From the NCBI RefSeq assembly GCF_004078635.1, contig NZ_RZNB01000001.1, positions 310,001 to 374,000 of the forward strand: a stretch of DNA of 64,000 bases. The letters are read 5' to 3'. Made by a program: the position numbers and the translations under genes. The first letter of the stretch is position 1, and each line of letters begins with the position of its first letter. The notes under the pieces are model-generated. The model worked only from the letters and a program-made list of their open reading frames with translations, was not told the origin of the DNA and made no database searches. Origin of the DNA: Labedella phragmitis (lineage in GTDB: Bacteria > Actinomycetota > Actinomycetes > Actinomycetales > Microbacteriaceae). Positions 5,145 through 23,578 of this stretch are shown one piece after another.

Positions 5145-5978
5145 CTAGTAGGAAGGGCGCACCGGCTCACCGGCGTTCGAGTCTCCGGAGCCGGGGTGTC
5201 CCTCGTCGGCGATGAACCGAGCGGCGAGAGCCTCCGAACCGCGAGCGAGCAGTGCGACGTCGGCGCCGACGAGGACGAAGGAGGCGCCCGCCTCGAGGTA
5301 GCGCTGCGCGGCGGCGGGATCGAACGCGTTGACCCCGACGGACTTGCCGACGGACCCCACGGCCTCGAACGCCCGGAGCACCGCGGCGGTCACGTCCGGG
5401 TGCGTCTGCTGCCCGAGCAGCCCCATCGAGGCGGAGAGGTCGCTCGGGCCCACGAAGACGCCGTCGATCCCGTCGACCGCGGCGATGGCGGCGGCGTTCT
5501 CGACGGCCTCGGCCGTCTCGACCTGCACGAGGAGCGATACGTGCTCCGCGGCGTTCTCGAGGTAGCCGTCGACGCGGTTCCAGCGGGCCGAGCGTGCGAG
5601 CGCGGAGCCCACCCCGCGTCGCCCCCGCGGCGGATAGTGCACCGCCTCGACGACGGCTCGCGCATCGTCGGCCGTCGACACCATCGGCACGAGGATGTTC
5701 TGCGCCCCGAGGTCGAGCACCTGCTTGAGTCCCACGGGGTCTCCGCTCGGCACGCGCACGACCGGCGTCACGGGATACGCGGCGACCGCGTGCAACTGCG
5801 CGAGGACGGACTCGAGGCCGTTGGGCGAGTGCTCCATGTCGACGAGCAGCCAGTCGAGGCCGGACCCTGCGCAGATCTCCGCGACGAGGGGGCTGCCGGA
5901 GCTCACCCACATGCCGGCGAGCGGGCGGGGCGAGGCGTCGAGCCGCTCGCGGAACGTCGGGGCTAGACGAAGCGGCAT
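5145..5978 (-). CDS. hpaI: 4-hydroxy-2-oxoheptane-1,7-dioate aldolase (HpcH/HpaI family)
   Basis: Class II pyruvate aldolase of 277 residues that would cleave 4-hydroxy-2-oxoheptanedioate into pyruvate and succinic semialdehyde, the last step of the homoprotocatechuate meta pathway. Family landmarks: GMWVSSGSPLVAEICAGSG, LLVDMEHSPNG (histidine base), VVRVPSGDPVGLKQVLDLGA (metal/substrate arginine region), GRRGVGSALARSARW, and the metal-binding VQVETAEAVEN and GPSDLSASMG. The ATG at 5978 lies inside the end of hpaH (16-bp overlap), so the two are translationally coupled. Confidence 0.92.
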   Translation of the reverse strand: MPLRLAPTFRERLDASPRPLAGMWVSSGSPLVAEICAGSGLDWLLVDMEHSPNGLESVLAQLHAVAAYPVTPVVRVPSGDPVGLKQVLDLGAQNILVPMVSTADDARAVVEAVHYPPRGRRGVGSALARSARWNRVDGYLENAAEHVSLLVQVETAEAVENAAAIAAVDGIDGVFVGPSDLSASMGLLGQQTHPDVTAAVLRAFEAVGSVGKSVGVNAFDPAAAQRYLEAGASFVLVGADVALLARGSEALAARFIADEGHPGSGDSNAGEPVRPSY

Positions 5979-6748
5979 GCGATCGTCCCCTGGGGTCCGT
6001 AGTCGGCGAGAACGGTGTCGCCCGGATGCACCCACGTCGGGCGGGTGAACGAGCCGGCGAGCACGATCTCCCCGGCCTCGAGGCGATCGCCGTGCTGCGC
6101 GAGCTTGTTCGCGAGCCACGCGACGCCCGTCGCGGGGTGATTGAGCACGGCCGCCGCGACGCCCGACTCCTCGATCGTCTCGTTGCGGTAGAGCAGGGCG
6201 GACACCCAGCGCAGGTCGACGGCGTCCGGTCGCACGGGCGTGCCGCCGAGCACCATTCCGCCCATCGCGGCGTTGTCGCTGATCGTGTCGACGATCGTTC
6301 GCCCCTGCATCTCGATGCGGGACGACAGGATCTCGAGCGCCGGGACGACGTACTCGGTGGCCCGCAGAACGTCGAACACGGTCGCGTTCGGCCCCTCGAT
6401 CGGCGCGGAGAGGACGAACGCGAGCTCGACCTCGATGCGGACGTTCGAGAAGCGGTCGTGCTCGATGACCGATCCGTTCTCGAACACCATGTCGGCGAAG
6501 ATCGCACCGTAGTCGGGCTCGGTGATGCCCGTCGCGACCTGCATGACCTTCGACGTCAGGCCGATCTTGCGGCCGACGGGGCGGCGCCCCGCGGCGATCC
6601 CCCGGCGGCGCCACTCGTTCTGCACCGCGTAGGAATCCTCGACGGTCATGTCGGGGTGGCGCGCGGTCAGGAGCGGAACGGTCGCCCGGTCGCGCTCGGC
6701 GGTCGCGAGCTCGTCGGCGATCGCCGCGATGGTCTCCTCGGAAAGCAT
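5963..6748 (-). CDS. hpaH: 2-oxo-hept-4-ene-1,7-dioate hydratase
   Basis: A 261-residue member of the 2-keto-4-pentenoate hydratase / fumarylacetoacetase-like superfamily. It would add water to 2-oxo-hept-4-enedioate before the HpaI aldolase step. Recognisable features are [24 protein letters not shown], the metal-binding EVELAFVL segment, and GVAWLANKL near the C-terminus. The start at 6748 is preceded by GGAGGAGA at good spacing; an upstream in-frame ATG at 6772 overlaps the ribosome-binding region and is less likely. It sits between hpaD and hpaI in the same minus-strand operon. Confidence 0.91.
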
Positions 6749-6775
6749 GGGTCTCCTCCGGTCGGTGGGCACAGC

Positions 6776-7930
6776 CTAGAGCTGGTTGCCGAGCTTGTAT
6801 TCGCCCTGCTTGTACGTCGGAAGCGAGTCCTCCTCGTCCTTCCGTGTGTAGGAGAAGCCGTCGGCCCCGATCGTCACCGCCATCTCGGACGAGTCGGTGC
6901 GGCTCACGAGCGGCTTCGGGTTGCCGTCGAGGTCGAGGACGAGCGACGCCTCCGTGTACCAGCTCGGGACGACGGGGTTGCCCCACCAGTCGCGGCGCTG
7001 GTTGTCGTGCACGTCCCACGTGACGACGGGGTTGTCCGGGTCGCCCGTGTAGTAGTCCTGCGTGTAGATCTCGACGCGGTGGCCGTCGGGGTCGCGCAAG
7101 TAGAGGTAGAACGCGTTCGAGACGCCGTGGCGTCCGGGTCCGCGTTCGATCGCGTCGGAGCGGCGGAGGGCGCCGAGCTTGTCGCAGATCGCGATGATGT
7201 TGTGCTTCTCGTGCGTCGCGAACGCGACGTGGTGCATGCGGGGACCGTCGCCGCCCGTCATCGCGGTGTCGTGCACGGTCGGCTTGCGGCGCATCCACGC
7301 GGCGTAGACCGTGCCGTCGCCGTCCTGGATGTCCTCCGTGACGCGGAAGCCGAGGTCCTCCATGTAGGCGACGGCGCGCGGGACGTCGGGGGTGACCTGG
7401 TTGAAGTGGTCGAGCCGCACGAGCGCACCAGGCGTATAGAGGTCGTAGCGCCACGCGAGCCGCTCGACGTGCTCGACGTCGTAGAAGAACTCGTACGGGA
7501 ACCCGAGCGGGTCCTCGACGCGGACGGAGTCGCCGATGCCCGTCGTGAAGCCCTCGGCGCGACGCTCGACGCGGCAGCCGAGCTCCGTGTAGAACGCCAC
7601 GGCCTTGTCGAGGTCCTCTGGGCTCCGCACCCGGTAGGAGAACGCGGCGACAGCCGCGACGGGGCCCTTCCGCAGCACGAGGTTGTGGTGGATGAACTCC
7701 TCGAAGGACCGCAGGTACACGGTCTCCTCGTCCTCCTCCGTGACGATGAGGTCGAGGACGTCGACATAGAAGGCTCGCGATGCCGCGAGGTCGGTGACGA
7801 CGAGCTCCATGTAGGCGCAGCGCAGCACGTCGGGGGCCGACGCGGTGGGCGTCGGGATGCGGTTCGCGACCTGGATGGGGTCGCCGTCCGTGACGACGGG
7901 CTCGGGGGAGTCGGGGGTGATGATGGTCAT
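6776..7930 (-). CDS. hpaD: Homoprotocatechuate (3,4-dihydroxyphenylacetate) 2,3-dioxygenase
   Basis: Extradiol ring-cleavage dioxygenase of the vicinal oxygen chelate family, 384 residues. It closely resembles the Brevibacterium fuscum enzyme from memory of that sequence: H175 (LDHFNQV), H234 (MHHVAF) and E287 (HRVEIYTQDYY) align with its metal ligands H155, H214 and E267, and H220 (TVHDTA) with catalytic H200, all at a constant offset of 20. The C-terminal lid sequence NQRRDWWGNPVVPSWY and terminal KLGNQL are also present. It opens the ring to 5-carboxymethyl-2-hydroxymuconate semialdehyde, the HpaE substrate. The about 20 extra N-terminal residues are the only visible difference. Confidence 0.96.
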   Translation of the reverse strand: MTIITPDSPEPVVTDGDPIQVANRIPTPTASAPDVLRCAYMELVVTDLAASRAFYVDVLDLIVTEEDEETVYLRSFEEFIHHNLVLRKGPVAAVAAFSYRVRSPEDLDKAVAFYTELGCRVERRAEGFTTGIGDSVRVEDPLGFPYEFFYDVEHVERLAWRYDLYTPGALVRLDHFNQVTPDVPRAVAYMEDLGFRVTEDIQDGDGTVYAAWMRRKPTVHDTAMTGGDGPRMHHVAFATHEKHNIIAICDKLGALRRSDAIERGPGRHGVSNAFYLYLRDPDGHRVEIYTQDYYTGDPDNPVVTWDVHDNQRRDWWGNPVVPSWYTEASLVLDLDGNPKPLVSRTDSSEMAVTIGADGFSYTRKDEEDSLPTYKQGEYKLGNQL

Positions 7931-7993: not shown

Positions 7994-9556
7994 TCAGCCC
8001 TCGGCCGTTTCGGCATCCTCTGCCATCTCGGCCGGGGTCTCCTTCTTGCCGAACGTGGGGTTGTGCGCTGCGCCGAGGGTGATGTGCACGGCCTGCTGAT
8101 CCGTGTAGAAGTCGATCGAGCGGTAGCCGCCCTCGTGGCCGAGTCCCGAGGCCTTCACTCCGCCGAACGGCGTGCGCAGATCGCGCACGTTGTTGGAGTT
8201 GAGCCACACCATCCCGGCCTCGACGGCCTGCGAGAAGTTGTGCGCGCGGCGCAGGTCGTTCGTCCACACGTAGGCGGCGAGTCCGTATCGCACGCCGTTC
8301 GCGAGTGCGAGCGCCTCCTCCTCCGTGTCGAAGGGGGTGATGGCGACGACGGGTCCGAAGATCTCCTCCTGGAAGATGCGGGCGTCCGACGGGACGTCGG
8401 CGAAGACGGTGGGGGCCACGAAGTTGCCCTCGTCGAAGCCCTCCGGTCGTCCGCCGCCGGCGACGAGGCGGCCCTCGCTCTTGCCGATCTCGACGTAGCT
8501 CATGACCTTGTCGTAGTGCTCGGGGTGCACCAGGGCGCCGACCTCGGTCTCGGGGTCGTGCGGGTAGCCGACGACGACGCGCTTCGCCTGGGCGGCGTAG
8601 CGCTCGACGAAATCGTCGTAGATCGATCGCTCGACGAGGATGCGGCTTCCCGCTGTGCAGCGCTCGCCGTTGAGGGAGAAGACGCCGAAGATGGTGGCGT
8701 CGACGGCCGCCTCGATGTCGGCGTCCGCGAAGACGATCGCGGGGCTCTTCCCGCCGAGCTCCATCGAGAGCCCTTTGAGAAAGGGAGCGGCGTTGGCGAA
8801 GATGATCTGCCCCGTGCGGCTCTCGCCCGTGAACGAGATGAGCGGGACGTCCGGGTGCTTCACGAGGGCGTCGCCCGCGTCCTCGCCGAGACCGTTCACG
8901 AGGTTGAAGACGCCCTGCGGGAGGCCGGCCTCCTCGAAGATGCCCGCCCAGAGCGAGGCGGAGAGCGGCGTGAACTCGGCGGGCTTCAGGACGACGGTGT
9001 TCCCCGTCGCGATCGCGGGGGCGAGCTTCCACGACTCGAGCATGAATGGCGTGTTCCACGGCGTGATGAGGCCCGCGACACCGATCGGCTTGCGGTTCAC
9101 GTAGTTGATCTGACGGCCCGGCACCTTGTACGTGTCGTCCGACTGCGCCACGATCAGGTCCGCGAAGAAGCGGAAGTTCTCCGCGGCCCGGCGGGCCTGT
9201 CCGAGCGCTTGCGTGATGGGCAGCCCGGAGTCGAACGACTCGAGCTCCGCGAGGCGCGCATCGCGGGACTCGACGATGTCGGCGATGCGGTGGAGCACGC
9301 GCGAACGCTCGCGCGGCAGCATGCGCGGCCACGGCCCGTCGGTGAAGGCGCGGCGCGCTGCCGCGACCGCGCGGTCGACGTCGGCCTTCTTGCCGGCGGC
9401 CGCCTGCAGATAGGTCTCGTTGGAGACGGGGTCGAGCACGTCGAACGTGTCGCCGTCCGCCGAGTCGACGAACTCGCCGTCGATGTAGTGCTGGATGCGC
9501 GTGGGCAGGTCGGCCGGTACGTGTCGCGTCGCTGCGACCGTCGTCGTGTCCATCAT
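7994..9556 (-). CDS. hpaE: 5-carboxymethyl-2-hydroxymuconate semialdehyde dehydrogenase
   Basis: NAD-dependent aldehyde dehydrogenase of 520 residues. Catalytic and cofactor residues are visible: N168 in TPWNTP, K191 in VVLKPAE, E266 in MELGGKSP and nucleophile C300 in NGERCTAGSR. Position directly upstream of hpaD, and PWNTPFMLESWKLAPA typical of the HpaE branch, support oxidation of the ring-cleavage semialdehyde. GGAGGAAC precedes the tandem ATG pair (9556 and 9553). The gene for HpaF, the isomerase expected after this enzyme, was not found in the window. Confidence 0.92.
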   Translation of the reverse strand: MMDTTTVAATRHVPADLPTRIQHYIDGEFVDSADGDTFDVLDPVSNETYLQAAAGKKADVDRAVAAARRAFTDGPWPRMLPRERSRVLHRIADIVESRDARLAELESFDSGLPITQALGQARRAAENFRFFADLIVAQSDDTYKVPGRQINYVNRKPIGVAGLITPWNTPFMLESWKLAPAIATGNTVVLKPAEFTPLSASLWAGIFEEAGLPQGVFNLVNGLGEDAGDALVKHPDVPLISFTGESRTGQIIFANAAPFLKGLSMELGGKSPAIVFADADIEAAVDATIFGVFSLNGERCTAGSRILVERSIYDDFVERYAAQAKRVVVGYPHDPETEVGALVHPEHYDKVMSYVEIGKSEGRLVAGGGRPEGFDEGNFVAPTVFADVPSDARIFQEEIFGPVVAITPFDTEEEALALANGVRYGLAAYVWTNDLRRAHNFSQAVEAGMVWLNSNNVRDLRTPFGGVKASGLGHEGGYRSIDFYTDQQAVHITLGAAHNPTFGKKETPAEMAEDAETAEG

Positions 9557-10322: not shown

Positions 10323-11902
10323 TGGCGGTACCTCTCCTTCCAGGCGGCGTTCATCGGGAAGAGCCCGTCGACCGGGTGGCCCGCCGCGACCTGATCCGCG
10401 ATCCACGCGTCCTCCGCCTCCTGGGCGATCGCGGCGTCCGCGACCTCCGCGGCAAGGGCCGGCGGGATCACGATGACGCCGTCGCCGTCGCCAACGATGA
10501 TGTCCCCGGGCTGCACCGTCGTCCCGCCGCACGCGATCGTGACGTCCGTGTCCCACGGCACGTGCTTGCGGCCGAGGACCGCGGGGTGCGCGCCGTTCGA
10601 GAACACGGGGATCCCGAGCGCCGCGACGGCGTCGTAGTCGCGGACGCCCCCGTCGGTCACGATGCCGGCGGCGCCGAGCGACCGGGCGCGGAGGGCGAGG
10701 ATGTCGCCGAGCGTGCCCGACCCCTTCTCCCCACGCGCCTCGATCACGACGACCTCGCCCTCCCGGAGCGAGTCGAATGCGCGCTTCTGGGCGTTGTACC
10801 CGCCACCGTGGCTCGCGAAGAGATCCTCGCGATGGGGGACGAAGCGGAGCGTCTTTGCGAGGCCGACGAGCTTGACGTCCGCGTGGTTCGCGCGCACGCC
10901 GTCGATCGTGACGTTGTCGAGGCCGCGCTTCCGCAACTGGGCGGAGAGGCCGGCGACGGGCGCCTCCTCGAGCTTCGCGCGCAGTGCCGAATCGAGCCCG
11001 AGCGGCGGGAGGCCAGCGGCCTCGCGTGATCCCCACGCCTCCGTGCGTTGCCGGTCGTCGACGGCGGGGAGCGATCCGAGGGCGGGATCGAACGGCTCTC
11101 GGCCCTCGACCACCGTCGTCACGAGCCGGCCGGAGGTCGGAGCTCCGGGCGCCTCGGGAGCGTCGACCTCCACTTCGACGACGTCGCCGGGGCCCACGAC
11201 GGAGGAACCGGCCGGGGTCCCGGTCAGGATCACGTCGCCCGGTTCGAGAGTCATGTGCTGCGAGAGGTCCGCCACGATGCGCGGGAAGGAGAAGAGCAGG
11301 TCGCCCGTGGTGTCGTCCTGGGCGATCTCGCCGTTGACCCAAGTGCGCACCCGCAGGGCGGACGGATCGACGGTCTCGGCCCGGAACCGTTCCGGGCCGA
11401 GGGGCGTGAATCCGTCGCCGCCCTTCGACCGCACGTTCGAGCCGTTGTCGTTCGCGCGCAGGTCGTAGAGCCCGAAGTCGTTGCCGGCCGTGATCCAGTC
11501 GACGTGGGACCAGGCGTCCGCCTCGCTGACGCGCTTGGCCGGCTTGCCGATCACGAGGGCGACCTCGCCCTCGAAGGCGAGCAGTTCGGTGCCCGCCGGC
11601 CGTTCGATGGTGCCGCCGGTCGCGGCGACGGAGCTCGACGGCTTGAGGAAGTACGAGGGGGCGGCGGGACGGCGGCCACGCTGCTCGGCACGCGATGTGT
11701 AGGCGAGGTGGACGGCGATGATCTTGCCTGGCCGGGAGGGGAGGGCCGAGAACCGGAGGTCCGACGACGGGGCCGTTCCGGCCGCCTCATCATGCGCGGA
11801 CGCACCAGTTTCGGAGGGCTCCTGCGGCGCCTGACCAGTGGCCGGAACGCCGTGTCGGCCCGTGTCGAAGCCCTCTCGGCCCGGATCAGTCGCGTCATCC
11901 AT
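10304..11902 (-). CDS. Fusion of fumarylacetoacetate hydrolase-family domain and RraA-family domain (HpaG-like isomerase/decarboxylase)
   Basis: A 532-residue two-domain protein. Residues about 50-290 are an FAH domain, with the metal-binding FEGEVALVIG and ITAGNDFGLYDLR and the LTGTPAGSS loop seen in HpaG and HHDD isomerases. Residues about 305-530 are RraA/4-hydroxy-4-methyl-2-oxoglutarate-aldolase-like, with DGGVRDYDAVAALGIP and GDIIVGDGDGVIVIP. In the homoprotocatechuate route, HpaG decarboxylates and isomerises the ring-fission acid using two FAH domains; here one FAH domain is joined to an RraA domain whose relatives include metal-dependent oxaloacetate decarboxylases. Division of labour is inference. 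Start at 11902 (spaced after GGCGGAG) was preferred to 11923. About 40 N-terminal residues look disordered. Confidence 0.85.
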   Translation of the reverse strand: MDDATDPGREGFDTGRHGVPATGQAPQEPSETGASAHDEAAGTAPSSDLRFSALPSRPGKIIAVHLAYTSRAEQRGRRPAAPSYFLKPSSSVAATGGTIERPAGTELLAFEGEVALVIGKPAKRVSEADAWSHVDWITAGNDFGLYDLRANDNGSNVRSKGGDGFTPLGPERFRAETVDPSALRVRTWVNGEIAQDDTTGDLLFSFPRIVADLSQHMTLEPGDVILTGTPAGSSVVGPGDVVEVEVDAPEAPGAPTSGRLVTTVVEGREPFDPALGSLPAVDDRQRTEAWGSREAAGLPPLGLDSALRAKLEEAPVAGLSAQLRKRGLDNVTIDGVRANHADVKLVGLAKTLRFVPHREDLFASHGGGYNAQKRAFDSLREGEVVVIEARGEKGSGTLGDILALRARSLGAAGIVTDGGVRDYDAVAALGIPVFSNGAHPAVLGRKHVPWDTDVTIACGGTTVQPGDIIVGDGDGVIVIPPALAAEVADAAIAQEAEDAWIADQVAAGHPVDGLFPMNAAWKERYRQWRETN

Positions 11903-12046: not shown

Positions 12047-13423
12047 GTGTCCACCCAGTACGCGCCCCCCGCGGTCGCCAGCGCCGACATGAAGAGAGTC
12101 GCCACTGCGACGATCATCGGCACCACGATCGAGTGGTACGACTTCTTCCTCTACGCGCAGGCCGCCGGTCTCATCTTCGGCTCTCTCTTCTTCGCCCCCG
12201 CCGGTCCGCAGGCCGCCGTCCTGCTATCGTTCGCGACGGTCGGCGTGAGCTTCCTCTTCCGCCCTCTCGGTGCGTTCCTCGCCGGTCACTTCGGCGACCG
12301 CATCGGCCGCAAGGCGATGCTCGTGTGGACGCTCGTGCTCATGGGCGGTGCGACGACGCTCATCGGCGTCCTCCCCACCTATGCGCAGATCGGCGTCCTC
12401 GCCCCCATCCTGCTCGTCCTCCTCCGTGTGCTGCAGGGCCTCTCGGCCGGTGGCGAGTGGGGCGGCGCCGTCCTCATGGCGGTCGAGCACGCGCCGAAGG
12501 GCAAGCGGGGTCGCTTCGGTTCCTTCCCGCAGATGGGCGTGCCGCTCGGCATGCTGCTCGCGTCGGGCGTCCTCGCGCTCATGACGGGTGTCATCTCGCC
12601 CGGTGAGGCGTTCGTCGAGTGGGGCTGGCGCATCCCGTTCCTGCTGAGCTTCGTGCTCATCATCGTGGGCTTCATCGTGCGCCGCTCGGTCGAGGAGAGC
12701 CCCGTCTTCACGGAACTCGCAACGAAGAAGGAGCGCACGAAGACCCCGATCGTGCAGGTCTTCAAGAAGCACTGGCTGCTCGTGATCCTCGCCGCGCTCA
12801 CCTTCGCGGGCAACAACGCCGCCGGCTACATGACGACGGGCGGGTTCCTCCAGGGCTACGCCACGACCCCGGTCGAGGAGGGCGGACTCGTCGGGATGGA
12901 GCGCACGCCGGTGCTGCTCGCCGTCACCGCCTCCGCAGTGGTGTGGTTGATCTTCACGGCGGTCGGCGGCGCGATCTCCGACCGCATCGGGCGCCGCAAC
13001 ACCTACATCGCCGGCTGGATCGTCTTCCTCGTGACGGTGTGGTTCCTCTTCCCCCTCGTGAACACGGGCAACGCGTTCCTGTTCTTCATCGGCATCGCCC
13101 TGTTCACGATCGGCAACGGCCTCACCTACGGACCGCAGGCGGCGTACTTCACTGAGCTGTTCCCGGCGTCGATCCGTTACTCGGGCGTCTCGATCGCGTA
13201 CGCGCTCGGTGCGATCCTCGGAGGCGCGTTCGCTCCGCTCATCTCGGCCTGGCTCGTGCAGATGACGGGCACGTCGAACGCCGTCGCGTGGTACATCGCC
13301 GGTGTCATGACGGTCGCGTTCATCGCGACGCTCCTCCTGCGCGACCGGACGAACATCCCGCTCGGCCTCGAGGGTGAGGCCGCGCAGACGACGAGTCCCA
13401 TCTACGGTCACAGCCACCGCTGA
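12047..13423 (+). CDS. MFS transporter, metabolite:H+ symporter (MHS) family, probable aromatic acid uptake
   Basis: A 458-residue, 12-helix permease of the ShiA/ProP-type MHS family: GTTIEWYDFFLYAQAAG in helix 1, GHFGDRIGRKAML in the loop between helices 2 and 3, LRVLQGLSAGGEWGGA in helix 4, and the second-half repeat GAISDRIGRRNTYI. The GTG at 12047 follows AAGGAG. It is divergent from the homoprotocatechuate operon and shares the regulatory region, so uptake of 4-hydroxyphenylacetate, 3,4-dihydroxyphenylacetate or a similar acid is likely; the substrate is inferred from context only. Confidence 0.88.
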   Translation: MSTQYAPPAVASADMKRVATATIIGTTIEWYDFFLYAQAAGLIFGSLFFAPAGPQAAVLLSFATVGVSFLFRPLGAFLAGHFGDRIGRKAMLVWTLVLMGGATTLIGVLPTYAQIGVLAPILLVLLRVLQGLSAGGEWGGAVLMAVEHAPKGKRGRFGSFPQMGVPLGMLLASGVLALMTGVISPGEAFVEWGWRIPFLLSFVLIIVGFIVRRSVEESPVFTELATKKERTKTPIVQVFKKHWLLVILAALTFAGNNAAGYMTTGGFLQGYATTPVEEGGLVGMERTPVLLAVTASAVVWLIFTAVGGAISDRIGRRNTYIAGWIVFLVTVWFLFPLVNTGNAFLFFIGIALFTIGNGLTYGPQAAYFTELFPASIRYSGVSIAYALGAILGGAFAPLISAWLVQMTGTSNAVAWYIAGVMTVAFIATLLLRDRTNIPLGLEGEAAQTTSPIYGHSHR

Positions 13424-16280: not shown

Positions 16281-16706
16281 TCAACCCACGACGGTCGGGG
16301 CGTCGAGCGGTGTTCCGCGTGTGTAGGGGCCGAAGAAGAGGTCGGCTCCGGGTTCGGTGAGAGCGGCGGAGGCGACGGTGAGGCCCGCGTCGGATTCTTC
16401 GATACCCTCGAGGGTCGCGAAGACGAGACGGTCATCCGGGACGTCGGGATCCGCGATGGTGAGCGTCCAGCCGTCCGTACCGTGTTCGATCGCGGGGTCC
16501 CCGATGACCACGTTGAGCAGTCCGCCGTGGCCCGTCATGACGACACGGCCGCTGAAGCTCAGGACGTCGCCGTCGCGCCGGACGAGCGGGAACCGGAAAC
16601 TCCGCCCGACGGCCCCGGCTCCGTCCTCCGTCGCGACCTCGCCGTCCGCCATGCCGGTGACGTAGCCGACGAGCGTCTCCTTGATGCCCCAGTCGAGGTG
16701 CGTCAC
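16281..16706 (-). CDS. Small cytosolic HtaA-domain protein
   Basis: A 141-residue protein consisting almost entirely of one HtaA domain: it opens LDWGIKETLVGYVTG, continues with RSFRFPLVRR and SFSGRVVMTGHGG, and then DPAIEHGTDGWTL. HtaA domains in corynebacterial surface proteins bind haem through a conserved Tyr and His; both the Tyr of GYVTG and the His of TGHGG are present. Unusually, there is no signal peptide, membrane anchor or second domain. The GTG start shares GTGA with the stop of the LysR gene, so the two are translationally coupled. The divergent neighbour is a P450 fusion, suggesting haem handling or sensing for that enzyme, which is inference. Confidence 0.8.
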   Translation of the reverse strand: MTHLDWGIKETLVGYVTGMADGEVATEDGAGAVGRSFRFPLVRRDGDVLSFSGRVVMTGHGGLLNVVIGDPAIEHGTDGWTLTIADPDVPDDRLVFATLEGIEESDAGLTVASAALTEPGADLFFGPYTRGTPLDAPTVVG

Positions 16707-17632
16707 GACGCGCTCCGTCCCGGCCAGTCGATCGAGCAGGCGAAGTCGATGAGCGCGCGAACCCGGGGTGTCGGCGCGGCGTCCGACGACCAGATGACGT
16801 CGATGCCGACGGGCGGAACGGCGGGTTCGATCTCCTTCATGACGACAGGGTAGCCCTCGTAGCTCGCGGGGTTGAGGGGCCGCTGCACGAGCACGCCGTA
16901 CCCGAGTCCGCGCCCGACGAGCGTGCGCACGGCCTCGTAGCTCGACGTCCGGTGCCGGATCCGCGGCGTCAGTCCACGGGCCGCGAAGAGCGAGAGCGTG
17001 TGCTCGCTCGACGGTGGCGCGTCGAGGAGGATGAGGTCGCGATCGGCGACGTCCTCGAGCCGCACCGTCGCCCGGTCGGCGAGCGGATCGCCCGCCGAGA
17101 CGAGCACGTGGGCCGGCAGCTCGAAGAGCCGGGCGCGGGACGGATTGCCGGGCACGAGCGTCTCGTAGACGAACGCGACGTCGACCTCGCCCGTCTCGAT
17201 GCGGCCGCGGAGCTCCTCGTGCGTGACCTCCAGCAGGTGGAGCTCGACAGCGGGGTGAGCGGCTCCGAAATCGTGGAGGAGCGGCGGGAGCACGGTCGGA
17301 GCGAGGGTCGGGTAGCACGCGATCGTCAGCGGCCCCGAGAGTTCGCCGTCGGGCGACGCGAGCGAGATCGACAACTCGCGAGCCGCGGCGAGCAAGGGCC
17401 GGGCGTGCCCGACGACGTGGGCGCCGGCGCTCGTGAGGGTGAGCCCGTGGGCTCGGCGGCGGACGCAGAGGCGCGTGCCGGTCACGCGCTCGAGCTCGGT
17501 GATCGCGTCCGAGAGGGCCGAGGTCGACACGTGCAGCCGCTCGGCGGCCGCCGCCATCGTGCCGGCGTCGGCTGCGGCGACGAGGTACGCGAGCTGCCGC
17601 AGGCTGAACGGCGGGATGTCAGGGACGTCCAT
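16703..17632 (-). CDS. LysR family transcriptional regulator
   Basis: A 309-residue LysR regulator with a clear N-terminal HTH (AAAERLHVSTSALSDAITELE) and an effector domain typical of the CbbR/OxyR fold. The start at 17632 has GGAAGG in front of it; the 33 extra codons upstream are not family-like. It is divergent from the P450 fusion gene, with about 110 bp between the starts, and is the likely activator of that gene. Its stop overlaps the start of the HtaA-domain gene. Confidence 0.92.
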   Translation of the reverse strand: MDVPDIPPFSLRQLAYLVAAADAGTMAAAAERLHVSTSALSDAITELERVTGTRLCVRRRAHGLTLTSAGAHVVGHARPLLAAARELSISLASPDGELSGPLTIACYPTLAPTVLPPLLHDFGAAHPAVELHLLEVTHEELRGRIETGEVDVAFVYETLVPGNPSRARLFELPAHVLVSAGDPLADRATVRLEDVADRDLILLDAPPSSEHTLSLFAARGLTPRIRHRTSSYEAVRTLVGRGLGYGVLVQRPLNPASYEGYPVVMKEIEPAVPPVGIDVIWSSDAAPTPRVRALIDFACSIDWPGRSAS

Positions 17633-17742
17633 GTCCGGTCCTTCCGAAGAGGTAGAGCGACTATATCCGCTTTTGCTTCGCAATGGACGAGCGCACAATC
17701 GAGAGGGAGGCACCACGGCGGTGCCGGACACGAGGAAGTGCC

Positions 17743-20700
17743 ATGACCGCGAACCCCGCTCCCGTCGCCGACTGGGTGACCATCCCGGATCTGTACCGCG
17801 ACCCGTTCCCGATCTACGACCGCTTGCGAGCGGAGGGCGGCGTGCACTGGGTGCCGCAGGTCGGCCGGTACCTCATCACGAGTTACGACGCGGTCCACGC
17901 GACCGAGTTCGATCAGGAGACCTTCTCGGCCAACGAGGAGGGTTCGCTGCAGATCCGAGCGATGGGTCACTCGATGCTCCGCCGCGACGACCCCGAGCAC
18001 TACGCGGAGCGCGCGGCGTGGCAACCGGTGCTGCGGCCCGGTGTCGTGAAGCGCACGTGGCGGGCCGTCTTCGAGCGAAACGCCGACCGCTACATCGACG
18101 AGCTCGTCGAGCGGGGGCCGGACGCGGACCTCATCTGGGACTTCGCCGCTCCCTTCGCCGCCGAGAACCTGCGTGAGATCCTCGGCTTCCACAACGTGCA
18201 CCAGACCGATCTGCAGCGCTGGTCGCAGACGCTCATCGACGCGACAGGGAACTACGCCGACGATCCCGCCGTCTGGGAGCTCGGGCGCCGGTCGTTCGAC
18301 GAGGTCGACCTCGCGCTCGACGAGATGCTCACGTGGCACGTGAAGCACCCCGACCACTCGCTCATCTCGTCGCTGCTCGCGATGCCGGGCGACCGCATGC
18401 CGATCGAGAAGATCCGCGCCAACATCAAGATGACGATCGGCGGCGGCCTCAACGAGCCGCGTGACGCTCTCGGCGTCGCCGCGTGGGCGCTGCTGTCGCA
18501 CCCGGACCAGCGCCGGGCCGTCGAGGAGGATCCCGCGCTCTGGTCGGCGGTGTTCGAGGAGAGCCTCCGCTGGATCGCGCCGATCGGGCTGTACTCCCGG
18601 CAGACGACGCGCGACGTCGAGCTCTCGGGCGTGCTCCTCCCGGCGGGCGCCAAGCTCGGCATCTGCATCCTCTCCGCCAACCGCGACGAATCCGTGTGGG
18701 ATGACGCCGACCGGTTCGACATCCGCCGGGAGGTGAAGCCGCACCTCGCTTTCAGCAAGGGCGTGCACGTGTGCCTCGGCGCGTGGGTCGCGCGCTCGCA
18801 GGTCGCCGACATCGGACTGCCGCGCCTCTTCGGTCGACTGCGCGGTCTCGACCTCGTCGCAGACCGGCCCGCCCAGGTGGGTGGCTGGGTCTTCCGCGGC
18901 ATGTTGAAGCTGCCCGTGCAGTGGTCGTCGGATTCGGGTGCTGCCGGAGTCGGCGCCGCGGCCGACGGTGCTGCGGCTCCCACTGCTGGCTCGACCGAGA
19001 CGGCGACGCCGTCGACCCCCGCACGCGTCGCCATCGTGGGCGCCGGTCCCGCGGGTTGCTTCACCGCCCAGGCCCTCCGCCGCGCCGCACCGGACGCGCA
19101 GATCGACGTCTTCGACGCCCTCCCCGTGCCGTACGGTCTGCTCCGCTACGGCGTCGCGTCGGACCACCAGGGCACGAAGTCGGTCGCACGTCAGTTCGAT
19201 CGACTCTTCGACCCCGAGCACACCCGCTTTCACGGCAACGTGCGGCTCGGAGCGGATGTGACCCTCGAGCGCTTGCGCGAGTCGTTCGACGCGGTCGTGC
19301 TCGCGACGGGTCTGCACAGCGACGTGCGACTCGCCGTGCCCGGATCCGAACTGCCCGGGATCGTGGGAGCCGGTGCGTTGACGCGCGCCGCCAACGGGCA
19401 CCCCGACGAGGCGGGCACGCCGCACCTCGGCGAGAACGTCGTCGTCGTGGGGCACGGCAACGTCGCCATGGACGTCGTGCGACTTCTCTCGCGCGACCCC
19501 CAGGATTACGACGGCAGCGACATCGACGACGACGTGCTGCGCGAGATCGCGGGGGACGTCCGCACGGTCCACGTCGTCGGTCGGAGCCTGCCGTCCGCCG
19601 CGCGCTTCGATCCCGTGATGGTCCGCGAACTCGCCGGGCTCGCCGGCGTGCGGCACGTCGTCCACGGCGCGGATCTCGACACGGTTCCGGCGGGCAAGGA
19701 CGCGCGGCTCGACGCCGTGCGGGAATTGACGTCTTCGGGCGACGGCGACGGTCACCGGGAACGGGTGACCGTCGAGTGGTGGTTCGGCCTCAGCCCCGTG
19801 CGCATCGAGGGTGATGCGGCCGCCGAGGCCGTGGTCTTCGCCTCGCCCGACGGGGAGGTGCGGCTCGCCGCCGATTCCGTCGTGACGGCCGTCGGCTTCG
19901 CGGCCGACCCCGAGTCACCGCTCGAGCCCGCCGCGCACGCCTCCGGCCGTGTCGAGCCGGGACTCTACACGGCGGGCTGGCTCCGCCGCGGCCCGCGCGG
20001 GACGATCCCCGACCAGCGAGCCGACGCTCGCGGCCTCGCCGCGATGATCCTCGAGGACCTCGCCGCACACACCTCGGCGGAGGATCGACCCGCGCGCCGG
20101 GAGTGGGAACGCCTCGCGCCAGCCGTCGACGCCGACGGCTGGCGGAGAGTCGACCTACAGGAACGGCTCGCCGCCGTGCCGGGTCGTGAGCGGCGCAAGC
20201 TCCGGTCGCGCGAGGAACTGCTCGCGGCGGCTCGCGACGAGTCGATCGCGCTGCCCCCGCGCGACGATGGGCCGGCGGCCGCACGCGGGTTCGGTGTTCC
20301 CGTCACGGTCGCCTTCGCCTCCGAATCGGGAGGGGCCGAGCTCGTGACCGACGACCTGCGGCGGGTGCTCGAGCCCACCACCGACGTCCGCGTCCTCGAT
20401 CTCGGGGAGGCCCGGCCGGACGACCTCGATCCCGCCCGACTGCACCTCGTCGTGTCGTCGACGTACGGGGACGGCGAGGTCCCGACGGCGGCGCGGCCGT
20501 TCCATGCGGCGCTCCGGAGCGGCGCCCACCGGCTCGACGGCCTGCGCTACGCCGTCTTCGGGATGGGAGACCGCAGCTACACGAAGACGTACTCGCGGGG
20601 CAGCGAACTGCTCGACGAGGCGCTGGCGGCGTGCGGCGCCGAACGCGTCGGCGAATACGGTCGTCACGACGCGGGCAGCGGCGCCGACCCCGTGGAGGCG

Positions 20701-20787
20701 GCTCAGGAGTGGCTCGACGGCATCGGCGAGGTCGTCGGCGCCGATGTCGCGGTGGCGGCAGGTGCCGACGCGACCCGTTCGGTCTGA
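17743..20787 (+). CDS. Self-sufficient cytochrome P450: P450 - ferredoxin/adrenodoxin-reductase-like FAD domain - flavodoxin fusion
   Basis: A 1014-residue three-domain redox protein. Residues about 1-395 are a P450: haem ligand C344 in FSKGVHVCLG, EESLRW for the ExxR motif, and I-helix IGGGLNEPRD, where the usual acid-threonine pair is replaced by E-P. An Ala/Gly/Thr/Pro-rich linker (about 396-426) leads to an FprA/adrenodoxin-reductase-like domain (about 429-850) with FAD motif VGAGPAG, LPVPYGLLRYGV, and NADPH motif VVGHGNVAMD. The C-terminus (about 852-1000) is a flavodoxin: SESGG phosphate loop, SSTYGDGEVP and VFGMGDRSY. No ferredoxin domain is present. Electrons would pass NADPH to FAD to FMN to haem within one chain. 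The divergent LysR/HtaA and downstream MobA suggest an aromatic substrate, possibly O-demethylation. Start at 17743 follows GAGGAAG. Confidence 0.93.
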   Translation: MTANPAPVADWVTIPDLYRDPFPIYDRLRAEGGVHWVPQVGRYLITSYDAVHATEFDQETFSANEEGSLQIRAMGHSMLRRDDPEHYAERAAWQPVLRPGVVKRTWRAVFERNADRYIDELVERGPDADLIWDFAAPFAAENLREILGFHNVHQTDLQRWSQTLIDATGNYADDPAVWELGRRSFDEVDLALDEMLTWHVKHPDHSLISSLLAMPGDRMPIEKIRANIKMTIGGGLNEPRDALGVAAWALLSHPDQRRAVEEDPALWSAVFEESLRWIAPIGLYSRQTTRDVELSGVLLPAGAKLGICILSANRDESVWDDADRFDIRREVKPHLAFSKGVHVCLGAWVARSQVADIGLPRLFGRLRGLDLVADRPAQVGGWVFRGMLKLPVQWSSDSGAAGVGAAADGAAAPTAGSTETATPSTPARVAIVGAGPAGCFTAQALRRAAPDAQIDVFDALPVPYGLLRYGVASDHQGTKSVARQFDRLFDPEHTRFHGNVRLGADVTLERLRESFDAVVLATGLHSDVRLAVPGSELPGIVGAGALTRAANGHPDEAGTPHLGENVVVVGHGNVAMDVVRLLSRDPQDYDGSDIDDDVLREIAGDVRTVHVVGRSLPSAARFDPVMVRELAGLAGVRHVVHGADLDTVPAGKDARLDAVRELTSSGDGDGHRERVTVEWWFGLSPVRIEGDAAAEAVVFASPDGEVRLAADSVVTAVGFAADPESPLEPAAHASGRVEPGLYTAGWLRRGPRGTIPDQRADARGLAAMILEDLAAHTSAEDRPARREWERLAPAVDADGWRRVDLQERLAAVPGRERRKLRSREELLAAARDESIALPPRDDGPAAARGFGVPVTVAFASESGGAELVTDDLRRVLEPTTDVRVLDLGEARPDDLDPARLHLVVSSTYGDGEVPTAARPFHAALRSGAHRLDGLRYAVFGMGDRSYTKTYSRGSELLDEALAACGAERVGEYGRHDAGSGADPVEAAQEWLDGIGEVVGADVAVAAGADATRSV

Positions 20788-20795
20788 CGCGGGTC

Positions 20796-20826
20796 GGCGG
20801 CTGATCAACCGACCCGGTCAGCCGCC
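20796..20826. terminator. Stem-loop between convergent P450 and IclR genes
   Basis: GGCGGCTGA at 20796-20804 pairs with TCAGCCGCC at 20818-20826; a second, overlapping pairing of CGGGTCGG with CCGACCCG exists. It overlaps the IclR stop codon and lies 9 bases after the P450 stop. Confidence 0.6.
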
Positions 20827-21525
20827 GAGCGCGTGCCGGATGGCGTCGGCGGACGTGACGAGTCGTCGCCCGATCTCCGCGTCGCCGTGGGCGCTCACGA
20901 CGTAGACCACCGCGAGTGCCGCCGGCGCCCGGCCGCGGACCGACAGGGGGACGGCGACGGAGCGGAGGCTCGGGATCACCTCGTCGTGGCTCGTCGCGAA
21001 CCCCGCCTCGGCGACCTGCTTGACCTCCGCTCGCGTGGCGTCGGACACCCCGTCGGGCCAGTCGGACGTCGGGACCGCCGAGAGGATCGCCTTGCCGGGA
21101 GCGCCGACGGCGACGGAGTGTCGCGTGCCGGGACGCTGGGCGACGGCCGCCACGGCGTGCCGCGGTTCGACGCTCACGAGCGTGACGCACTCGTCCCGAT
21201 CGAGCGTCGCGAGGAAACACGTCATGCCGAGCTCGTTCGCGATGGCGGTGAGCTCCGGCAGTGCCTCGGCCTGCACGTCATGGGCGACGCCGGCGGCGAG
21301 CGCCGCCATGCGCGAGCCCAGGGTGATCCGGCCGGACTCGTCGCGCGCGACGAGTCCGTGCTGTTCGAGGGTGCGCACGAGTCGGTAGGCGATCGATCGG
21401 TGCACGCCGAGGGCGGCAGCCGTCTCGTCGATCGTCGACGACCCGCGCACGTCGGCGAGGTGCTCGAGCACACGGATGCCCCGGCTGAGCGTCTGCAGCG
21501 CCGGAGTGTCGTTCTGAGCGGCCAT
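20818..21525 (-). CDS. IclR family transcriptional regulator
   Basis: A 235-residue IclR regulator: N-terminal winged helix (TIDETAAALGVHRSIAYRLV) and a GAF-like effector domain with VEPRHAVAAVAQ, the GAPGKAILSAV segment and, near the C-terminus, VAVPLSVRGRAPAALAVV. It is divergent from the MobA-like monooxygenase, and the shared 151-bp spacer contains a double palindrome that is its probable operator. IclR proteins such as PobR and PcaU commonly regulate hydroxybenzoate and protocatechuate genes, in line with this context. Confidence 0.92.
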   Translation of the reverse strand: MAAQNDTPALQTLSRGIRVLEHLADVRGSSTIDETAAALGVHRSIAYRLVRTLEQHGLVARDESGRITLGSRMAALAAGVAHDVQAEALPELTAIANELGMTCFLATLDRDECVTLVSVEPRHAVAAVAQRPGTRHSVAVGAPGKAILSAVPTSDWPDGVSDATRAEVKQVAEAGFATSHDEVIPSLRSVAVPLSVRGRAPAALAVVYVVSAHGDAEIGRRLVTSADAIRHALGG

Positions 21526-21676: not shown

Positions 21677-23578
21677 ATGCAGTTCCACCACCACGGGTAC
21701 GTCTCCGGCGATCCCCGCGTCAGCCCACCCGCCGGGACGGGCGTCGACCGCCCGGCCGACCTACCCGGCGAGGTCGACGTGCTCATCGTCGGGAGTGGCC
21801 CGGCCGGCATGATCCTCGCGGCGCAACTGTCGCAGTTCCCCGGGATCACGACGCGCCTCGTCGAGCGACGGCCGGGCCGACTCGCGATCGGGCAGGCCGA
21901 CGGTATCCAGGCACGCAGTGTCGAGACGTTCCAGGCCTTCGGGTTCGCCGAGCGGATCGTCCAGGAGGCGTACCGGATCACCGAGATGTGCTTCTGGGCG
22001 CCCGACTCGCAGGACCCGTCGCGGATCGTCCGCACCGCGCGCGCCGAGGACGACCCGAACGGCATCAGCGAGTTCCCGCACCTCATCGTCAACCAGGCGC
22101 GGGTCCTCGACTACTTCGCCGAGGTCATGGCGAATTCGCCCACGCGCATGAAGCCCGACTACGGCTACGAGTTCGTGGGACTCGAGGTCGACCACTCGGA
22201 TGCGGGCGGCGACTTCCCCGTCACGGTGACGCTGCGCTACACCGCGGAGGAGGGGGCCGACGCCGAGGAGCGCACCGTCCGCGCGAAGTACGTCGTGGGT
22301 TGCGACGGCGCTCGCAGCGGCGTGCGGGAGGCGATCGGTCGACGCCTCGAGGGCGATCAGGCGCGCCACGCCTGGGCCGTCATGGACACGCTCGCCGTCA
22401 CCGACTTCCCCGACATCCGCACGAAGTGCGCCATCCAGTCGCGCCACGGCAGCATCCTCCACATTCCGCGGGAGGGCGGCCACCTCTTCCGCATGTACGT
22501 CGATCTCGGCGAGGTCCCGGAGGGCGACGCCGGATCCGTCCGGAAGACGACCAAGGAGACGGCGATCGCGAAGGCGAACGAGATTCTCCCCCCCTACACG
22601 CTCGATGTGAAGGACATCGCCTGGTACAGCGTCTACGAGGTGGGGCACCGCCTGACGGATGCGTTCGACGACGTGACGGAGGGCGAGGACCGCACGCCCC
22701 GCGTCTTCATCGCCGGTGACGCGTGCCACACGCACAGCGCGAAGGCCGGTCAGGGGATGAACGTCTCGATGCAGGACGGCTTCAATCTCGGATGGAAGCT
22801 CGGGCACGTGCTCGACGGTCGGGCCCCGGAATCGCTGCTCGCGACCTACTCCGCCGAGCGTCAGGTGATCGCCCGCGACCTCATCGAGTTCGACAAGGAG
22901 TGGTCGAGCCTCATGGCGAAGAAGCCCGAGGAGTTCGACGACCCCGCCGAGCTGGGGGAGTTCTACGTGACGACCGCCGAGTTCCCCGCCGGATTCCGGA
23001 CGCAGTACCCGCCGTCGATGCTCGTCGGGGAACACACCCACCAGGGCCTCGCGACGGGATTCCCCATCGGGAAGCGCTTCAAATCGGTGCCCGTCGTGCG
23101 TGTCGCCGACGCGAACCCGCTCCACCTCGGGCACCACGCGCGAGCGGACGGGCGCTGGCGGATCTACGCGTTCGCGGGCGACGACGTGAGCCGACCGGGG
23201 GGCCTCGATGAATGGGCCGACTGGCTCGCGTCCTCCGCCGATTCGCCCGTCGTGCGGTTCACGCCGGAGGGAGCGGACCTCGACGCGGTCTTCGACGTGA
23301 AGGCCGTGTACCAACAGCGGCACGTCGACGTCGACATCACTCGGGTGCCGCGGGTGTTCCTCCCGCCCTCCGGGCCGTTCGGTCTCACCGATTACGAGAA
23401 GGTCTTCGCGGTGGACCCGCACGTCGACATCTTCGAGGAGCGCGGCATCGACCGGACGGCGGGCTGCGTCGTCGTGGTGCGGCCCGACCAGTACGTCGCC
23501 CATGTGCTGCCGTTGTCGGCGACCGACGAGCTCGCCGCCTTCTTCGACCGCCAGATGCTCGAGCTGCGACGGGACTGA
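21677..23578 (+). CDS. mobA: 3-hydroxybenzoate 4-monooxygenase-like flavoprotein
   Basis: A 633-residue class A FAD monooxygenase of the phenol hydroxylase family that would hydroxylate 3-hydroxybenzoate to protocatechuate with NADPH and O2. It resembles Comamonas MobA along its length as I recall it: the N-terminal MQFHHHGYVSGDP, FAD motif VGSGPAG (residues 38-44), GQADGIQARSVE, DG motif VGCDGARSGVR, GDACHTHSAKAGQGMN, and the C-terminal thioredoxin-like domain ending VVVRPDQYVAHVLPL. The ATG at 21677 follows GGAGGGA; the longer upstream frame crosses the operator and is rejected. Regulation by the divergent IclR gene is likely. Confidence 0.88.
   Translation: MQFHHHGYVSGDPRVSPPAGTGVDRPADLPGEVDVLIVGSGPAGMILAAQLSQFPGITTRLVERRPGRLAIGQADGIQARSVETFQAFGFAERIVQEAYRITEMCFWAPDSQDPSRIVRTARAEDDPNGISEFPHLIVNQARVLDYFAEVMANSPTRMKPDYGYEFVGLEVDHSDAGGDFPVTVTLRYTAEEGADAEERTVRAKYVVGCDGARSGVREAIGRRLEGDQARHAWAVMDTLAVTDFPDIRTKCAIQSRHGSILHIPREGGHLFRMYVDLGEVPEGDAGSVRKTTKETAIAKANEILPPYTLDVKDIAWYSVYEVGHRLTDAFDDVTEGEDRTPRVFIAGDACHTHSAKAGQGMNVSMQDGFNLGWKLGHVLDGRAPESLLATYSAERQVIARDLIEFDKEWSSLMAKKPEEFDDPAELGEFYVTTAEFPAGFRTQYPPSMLVGEHTHQGLATGFPIGKRFKSVPVVRVADANPLHLGHHARADGRWRIYAFAGDDVSRPGGLDEWADWLASSADSPVVRFTPEGADLDAVFDVKAVYQQRHVDVDITRVPRVFLPPSGPFGLTDYEKVFAVDPHVDIFEERGIDRTAGCVVVVRPDQYVAHVLPLSATDELAAFFDRQMLELRRD

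Follow-up and report, generated by a model that had tools for sequence, protein, structure and literature searches.

A single-chain cytochrome P450 with its own FprA-type reductase and flavodoxin in Labedella phragmitis and related bacteria

Domain organization of the gene at 17743-20787

The window described here is a 64,000-nucleotide stretch of the Labedella phragmitis genome (contig NZ_RZNB01000001.1, positions 310,001 to 374,000), and our subject is one gene on its forward strand, at 17743-20787, encoding a single protein of 1014 amino acids that consists of a cytochrome P450, an FprA/adrenodoxin-reductase-type flavin adenine dinucleotide (FAD) domain and a flavin mononucleotide (FMN) flavodoxin. 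The frame is open down to one stop. A ribosome-binding-site-like GAGGAAG (17732-17738) precedes the ATG at 17743, with 4 bases between the two; an upstream ATG at 17683 would give a longer frame, and homologues begin near 17743. A preliminary description had proposed these three parts, in this order in one frame and without a ferredoxin, and both points are confirmed. The motifs that it quoted (FSKGVHVCLG, VGAGPAG, VVGHGNVAMD, SESGG, SSTYGDGEVP and the I-helix E-P) are all present in the translation, and Pfam reports matches above curated cut-offs to p450 (residues 268-354), Pyr_redox_2 (428-579) and, over the full profile, Flavodoxin_1 (856-990). Neither a Fer2 ferredoxin nor an FNR-type family is matched by Pfam in the protein at E values up to 0.001. 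With all redox domains in one chain, the protein has the architecture of a self-sufficient P450.

The P450 domain (17743-18930, residues 1-396) is followed by linker 1 (18931-19014), the FAD-NAD(P)H domain (19015-20238, residues 425-832), linker 2 of ~20 amino acids (20239-20298) and the flavodoxin domain (20299-20724, residues 853-994; Flavodoxin_1 at 5.8e-17). Across 18 aligned members, linker 1 measures 13-40 amino acids over residues 395-427 and linker 2 measures 20-25 over residues 833-853; the earlier characterization of the linkers as low-complexity suits the first, which is Ala/Pro-rich and of varying length, and not the second. The haem cysteine, the ExxR motif and the core flavin/nucleotide motif residues are the same in all 18 of these members. 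Pairwise ratios of nonsynonymous to synonymous substitution rates (dN/dS) are 0.07-0.40 in each domain over four comparisons, a measure that is crude in such GC-rich genes. An AlphaFold2 model contains three folded parts, with the linker at residues 398-423 at low confidence (predicted local distance difference test, pLDDT, under 50). Because the predicted template modelling score (pTM) is 0.57 and confidence is low around the haem loop (330-344), the model weighs against any firm picture of how the domains pack, and this packing is not established.

Each domain was compared with proteins of known structure. In a phmmer search of the PDB, P450 residues 5-395 match entry 6g71 ('Structure of CYP1232A24 from Arthrobacter sp.') at 1.5e-165, with 62% identity over 392 columns. 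P450 families are named for more than 40% identity to a member, and by this measure the domain falls within CYP1232. The haem ligand is Cys344 (18772-18774), the ExxR motif is E273-x-x-R276 and the I-helix carries N-E-P at residues 237-239, each of which is found in 33/33 fused rows. The preliminary description had singled out E-P in place of the acid-alcohol pair. The residues are indeed present, but they are not special to the fusion: N-E-P also occurs in 14/14 stand-alone relatives and the solved SyoA has Q-E-P, so that lack of the acid-alcohol pair is the usual state in this branch. The reductase domain matches adrenodoxin reductase (1.3e-48) and FprA (2.9e-47) by phmmer, and the best PDB match of the flavodoxin domain by sequence search is cindoxin (1e-21). 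The flavodoxin domain is absent from the 50 structure-search matches listed, a list that one domain can fill.

Distribution of the family and origin of the fusion

The three-part protein is carried by dozens of related bacteria and is recurrent in one bacterial order. A scan of 84,980 species genomes with the window protein gave 23 loci. In 21 of them (L003-L023) the match begins at query residue 1-7 and ends at 978-1013, with 56-77% identity in the best segment; the hosts are Agrococcus, Leucobacter, Gulosibacter, Microbacterium, Zimmermannella and an uncultured Serinicoccus. In 19 of the 21, a single intact frame spans all three domains in the order seen here. An assembly fusion, raised as a possibility in the preliminary description, is ruled out by these near-full-length loci and by the further genomes given below. 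Two copies are decayed or mis-sequenced: L018 has an in-frame stop within the flavodoxin part (stop at 10715), and in L023 the reading frame shifts at the first linker (9167-9310). On a second contig of the uncultured Serinicoccus, L024 (8001-8594) is 61% identical to residues 547-750 of the window protein and seems to be part of another copy.

Within the order of the window's host, 15 of 396 sampled genomes match the P450 domain at E 1e-60, and 10 of 17 match places lie in frames of 1012-1081 amino acids. An eleventh long frame, of 1799 amino acids in genome G171, was rejected as a fusion, being a GC-rich frame in which the P450 gene stops at the P450 domain. In the host's own family 6 of 199 genomes match, 5 of them with a frame of 1012-1064 amino acids. 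In family f6, 63 of 245 genomes match 6g71 at E 1e-80; the best 15 places (one per genome) are all in frames of at least 1007 amino acids, the match to the window protein extends from the P450 into the reductase in 15/15, and it extends through the flavodoxin in 7/7 loci with enough DNA (L137-L143). Open frames in the f6 scan included one of 1076 (G997) and one of 813 amino acids (G941). Among 394 genomes of the class, 8 match the P450, long frames (at least 1012 amino acids) occur only in the window genome and one relative of its family, and no fusion was seen outside the order, the other six matching genomes being judged by frame length. Plasmids carried no fused copy among the best 40 of 1311 matching records; the top rows, including the 9 whose matches span 80% or more of the query, are matched in two or three pieces, and the five inspected (H1-H4 and H6) have separate P450 and reductase genes. 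No relatives were found on viral contigs. The window genome itself contains one further P450 match and one further FprA-like gene, on contig C11.

A first P450 tree of 53 domains, with the near-duplicate row L112 left out, places all fused sequences in one clade (33/33, support 100/100). A second tree added 12 fused sequences, 5 stand-alone sequences and 6g71, and dropped 8 fused rows, one partial row and those from 6 distant loci; here the fused sequences again form a clade (37/37, 89/84), which 6g71 joins at 100/99. One change explains the fused state in this tree, with 6g71 outside that count. We treated 6g71 as stand-alone because its chain has 405 amino acids, although its source construct may have been cut from a fused gene. 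Since the fused P450s form one clade, nested among ferredoxin-coupled stand-alone P450s, they probably derive from one fusion event.

Of the stand-alone loci inspected, 17/17 carry a [2Fe-2S] ferredoxin gene no more than ~1.5 kb from the P450 and 16/17 have a Pyr_redox/Reductase_C-type reductase gene nearby, the exception being L046; Pfam was applied to two ferredoxins and two reductases from these loci. The corresponding search covered 30 fused loci (21 of 28 flanked loci, positions 9001-30000 of the window and 8 f6 loci) and found a ferredoxin gene near 0/30, with hardly any flank at L136 and some short downstream flanks; of a ferredoxin-partner reductase, just a 32-residue piece at L010 was seen. 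A LysR gene lies within ~1 kb of the fusion in 25/29 fused loci and in 7/7 f6 fused loci with flank, and a divergent one stands beside stand-alone L043, L044, L045, L099, L108 and L144-L146 at 39-47% identity. That fused and stand-alone loci share this gene argues for one and the same locus in which the redox partner changed. Together, the contrast in ferredoxin genes and the nesting of the fused clade indicate a partner swap, in which a P450 formerly driven by a ferredoxin acquired a reductase of the XplB type and a flavodoxin.

The new partner was placed in a reductase tree of 57 domains, in which 9 of 26 ordinary FprA rows were kept. The fused FprA domains form one clade (33/33, 100/99). 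A 100/100 branch splits the tree into 46 and 11 rows, and the fused domains lie on the 46-row side with XplB, flavodoxin-adjacent FprAs of alphaproteobacteria and Rhodococcus, and P450-linked FprAs; that is to say, they are of the XplB type, apart from housekeeping FprA. Outside the fusions, the nearest reductases come from alphaproteobacteria (44-48% identity), that of L055 among them. On the 11-row side is the second FprA of the window genome, together with 10 more rows, among them the FprA of L025 (Rhodocyclales). This locus was rejected as a split relative, since its 5931 bases encode a separate flavodoxin and FprA and no P450; the FprA lies outside the XplB-type group despite the nearby flavodoxin gene, a case against a strict rule. 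The preliminary description had regarded the protein as the parts of XplA and XplB joined in one chain. The reductase does group with XplB, but an XplA-like P450 was rejected at ~25% identity. Because the P450 is instead CYP1232-like and nested among ferredoxin-coupled P450s, the fusion appears to be a partner swap on a different P450.

Separate genes of the same kinds were met on plasmids. At L056 (6851-9872, Rhodococcus pyridinivorans plasmid pA), genes for a P450, an FAD-dependent oxidoreductase (FprA-type) and a flavodoxin follow the order of the fusion's domains, and the P450 is just 23% identical. A Klebsiella grimontii plasmid (L057, 5980-8949) carries consecutive genes for an FprA-type reductase, a flavodoxin and a P450, with like matches on 4 more Klebsiella or Enterobacter plasmid records (H7-H10). 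On alphaproteobacterial plasmids (L052-L055, L115), a flavodoxin gene comes directly after an FprA-type reductase gene, and no P450 is annotated in the vicinity; the pair follows an aldehyde dehydrogenase gene in L052-L054 and adjoins a Rieske oxygenase gene pair, including the alpha subunit, in L055.

The nucleotide-binding site differs from that of ordinary FprA. An R-R pair of FprA/adrenodoxin reductase contacts the phosphate of NADPH, and residues 614-615 are R-S instead, as in 33/33 fused domains. The R-R pair is kept in 28/41 other reductases, and the 13 that are without it are all flavodoxin- or P450-linked. With R-S for R-R, and with XplB having been assayed with NADH (PMC8081977), the fusion may accept NADH.

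Neighbouring genes and the candidate reaction

Divergent from the fusion lies a LysR-family regulator identified by Pfam (16703-17632, reverse strand), whose longest frame reaches 17731 and whose start at ATG 17632 was judged by homologues. On the other side are an IclR-family, PcaR/PcaU/PobR-like regulator (20818-21525, reverse strand; 69.9 bits, under that model's cut-off) and a 3-hydroxybenzoate 4-hydroxylase-like flavoprotein (21677-23578, forward strand, ATG after GGAGG). The latter matches PDB 2dkh ('3-hydroxybenzoate hydroxylase') with 686 bits and NF006144 ('phenol 2-monooxygenase') over the cut-off, and we take it to be MobA-like. Further upstream, on the reverse strand, three products score over the cut-offs of their TIGRFAM models: HpaE, 5-carboxymethyl-2-hydroxymuconate semialdehyde dehydrogenase (7994-9556, TIGR02299); HpaD, 3,4-dihydroxyphenylacetate (homoprotocatechuate) 2,3-dioxygenase (6776-7930, TIGR02295); and HpaH, 2-oxo-hept-4-ene-1,7-dioate hydratase (5963-6772, TIGR02312). 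A major facilitator superfamily metabolite:H+ symporter-like transporter is encoded at 12089-13423 on the forward strand (start approximate; TIGR00883 with 402 bits, cut-off 443), and its relatives lie within ~6 kb in 17/29 fused loci and several stand-alone loci. The IclR and then MobA-like order beside the fusion is found in the window and L006, and MobA-like genes of 59-70% identity lie within ~11 kb at fused L050 and L102 and stand-alone L046. HpaE of 79-86% identity is found upstream, as in the window, in L050 and in L003, L004, L008, L013-L016 and L102 (Agrococcus or same-family).

The presence of 3-hydroxybenzoate and homoprotocatechuate breakdown genes suggests O-demethylation of meta-methoxylated aromatic acids, since the MobA-like and HpaD/E/H neighbourhoods would both fit such a reaction. 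CYP1232A24 is reported to convert homovanillate to 3,4-dihydroxyphenylacetate with a preference for the meta methoxy group (Klenk et al. 2019). We regard as probable, though well short of certain, a self-sufficient P450 that originated by partner swap and acts, most likely, as an O-demethylase of meta-methoxylated aromatic acids; its role may perhaps be to strip methyl groups from plant-derived aromatic acids.

In the proposed mechanism, NAD(P)H would pass hydride to an FAD in the FprA-type middle domain, the FAD would pass single electrons to an FMN in the C-terminal flavodoxin, and the tethered flavodoxin would dock on the proximal face of the P450 and reduce the haem twice per turnover. Domain content and the loss of the ferredoxin both point to the flavodoxin as the likely haem reductant. 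The family would have arisen once, when a CYP1232-type P450 lost its [2Fe-2S] ferredoxin and reductase and became fused with an FprA of the XplB type and a flavodoxin. Candidate substrates are methoxyphenylacetates (homovanillate) or 3-methoxybenzoate, which would be O-demethylated with release of formaldehyde, and the products would feed homoprotocatechuate meta-cleavage (HpaD/E/H) or the adjoining 3-hydroxybenzoate 4-hydroxylase.

Several observations weigh against the O-demethylase assignment. In the window, other genes intervene between the fusion and HpaD/E/H, which lie 8-12 kb upstream of it, pathway neighbours vary by lineage, no MobA-like gene occurs in the DNA compared for 25/29 fused loci, and no HpaE of at least 79% identity is found at 19/29. 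In favour of the assignment, fold ranking among P450s, for the matches listed, puts CYP1232A24 first, GcoA second and, by VIA-align, SyoA third; against it, Foldseek places SyoA and CYP199A among P450s of other names, with CYP125, CYP109 and P450BioI, which are not titled as O-demethylases, level with them. The variation in neighbours favours a self-sufficient P450 with another reaction, in which a different aromatic compound would be hydroxylated or N-/O-dealkylated. We consider this the strongest competing explanation and yet an unlikely one, given that the closest solved P450s among the matches listed are CYP1232A24 and then the O-demethylase GcoA, and that most fused loci and several stand-alone ones adjoin a LysR gene, which suggests a single, conserved role in catabolism.

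Self-sufficiency itself could fail if the flavodoxin and reductase mainly served another partner, or if electrons passed only between the subunits of a dimer, in which case a single chain would be insufficient. FprA-flavodoxin gene pairs do exist without a P450, including the one beside the Rieske oxygenase alpha subunit gene at L055, and the haem-FAD-FMN order leaves the FMN distant from the haem in sequence. We judge this improbable. According to a 2024 review, P450s of class VII likewise have the one-electron carrier last (PMC11173547), and, because fused loci are without the ferredoxin that stand-alone relatives keep, the fused module probably feeds the P450. An artefact in which three adjacent genes are read as one frame is scarcely credible, for although spurious frames stay open in GC-rich DNA (as in G171) and the L018 and L023 copies are broken, one open frame covers all three domains in nearly all near-full-length loci and in further genomes, and dN/dS is at most 0.40 in each domain.

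A further gene accompanies many fused loci. In the window, a protein of ~142 amino acids with an HtaA domain is encoded at 16281-16709 on the reverse strand (GTG start inferred), overlapping the 3' end of the LysR gene; PF04213 matches the frame at 16281-16715 with 2.3e-18, and PDB matches of the protein are weak. The window genome has no other HtaA match, and 1/14 control genomes has any. A profile made from the copies beside fusions, which may miss diverged ones, detected HtaA beside 19/29 fused loci and 5/7 f6 loci (24/36), and beside 0/17 stand-alone and 0/9 more distant loci. Four further fused loci with ~1.5 kb flanks, outside the 29 counted, had no HtaA. The gene lies just upstream on the fusion's strand in two Gulosibacter and five f6 loci; examples are L017 (7444-8001, forward), L018 (7408-7923, forward), L137, L138, L140, L142 and L143. 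HtaA family members bind haem in iron uptake, and a role here in haem delivery is a guess. It is doubtful that the protein is a new natural class of self-sufficient P450, derived by a single partner swap, that also has an HtaA helper seating or storing its haem. If it is, a haem-binding family known from iron uptake would serve one P450; the HtaA link also raises the separate question of haem supply to P450s.

Comparison with known P450 systems

The 2024 review lists P450 redox classes I-X, none of which is a chain of P450, FAD reductase and flavodoxin (PMC11173547), in agreement with the preliminary claim that this order lies outside the established classes. A 2025 paper sorts natural single-chain P450s mainly into two classes (PMC11889516). 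Among the open-literature matches listed, no title or opening of an abstract describes a natural P450-FAD reductase-flavodoxin chain, and subscription journals may hold one.

CYP1232A24 (6g71) is sister to the fused clade and has the same I-helix NEP and K-G-V-H-V-C-L-G haem loop. In contrast to the fusion, its solved chain of 405 amino acids contains no reductase or flavodoxin, and its native redox partners are presumably separate proteins. XplA/XplB, which we take to be the L058 and L112 genes (Gordonia pGKT2, Rhodococcus plasmids) annotated as a P450 and an FAD-dependent oxidoreductase, likewise combines an FprA-type reductase (~45% identity) and a flavodoxin (~38%) with a P450. It differs in having two chains, with the flavodoxin N-terminal to a P450 that is ~25% identical to ours; the flavodoxin at residues 856-990 and the reductase within the same chain set the present protein outside class VI (XplA type). 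Class III (P450cin and cindoxin) also has a flavodoxin as electron donor, but as separate proteins, whereas all three parts are here in one 1014-amino-acid frame.

Class VII (CYP116B, P450 RhF) is alike in having one chain with the haem first, an NAD(P)H-flavin reductase in the middle and a carrier last. Its carrier is [2Fe-2S] and its reductase an FMN enzyme of the phthalate-oxygenase type, in contrast to the FprA-type FAD domain and the C-terminal Flavodoxin_1, with no Fer2 match, of the present protein. Class VIII (P450 BM3, CYP102) shares haem, FAD and FMN in one chain. P450 BM3 joins haem to a cytochrome P450 reductase (CPR) with FMN before FAD and an FNR-type fold; the window protein has FAD before FMN and an adrenodoxin-reductase fold, and so falls outside a class defined by a diflavin CPR with an FNR-type FAD/NADPH module.

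After CYP1232A24, the solved P450s closest to the domain are demethylases of methoxyaromatic compounds. GcoA (CYP255A) and SyoA, the latter an aromatic O-demethylase whose crystals hold syringols, have a related P450 fold, with an E-P I-helix in SyoA, but their P450s are 24-29% identical to the one described here. Single-chain P450s are sought as catalysts, and this family offers a further design, with flavodoxin parts and no iron-sulphur clusters. Because stand-alone, ferredoxin-partnered relatives survive, it also allows a direct test of partner change and of what fusion gains. GcoB is a separate [2Fe-2S]-FAD-NAD reductase, and the paper describing it calls GcoAB a new two-component class (PMC6021390). 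Since that designation was given to a two-protein arrangement, the architecture found here would count as a new class as well. The protein seems to belong to a self-powered P450 type that has yet to be characterised, built from parts that are all known.

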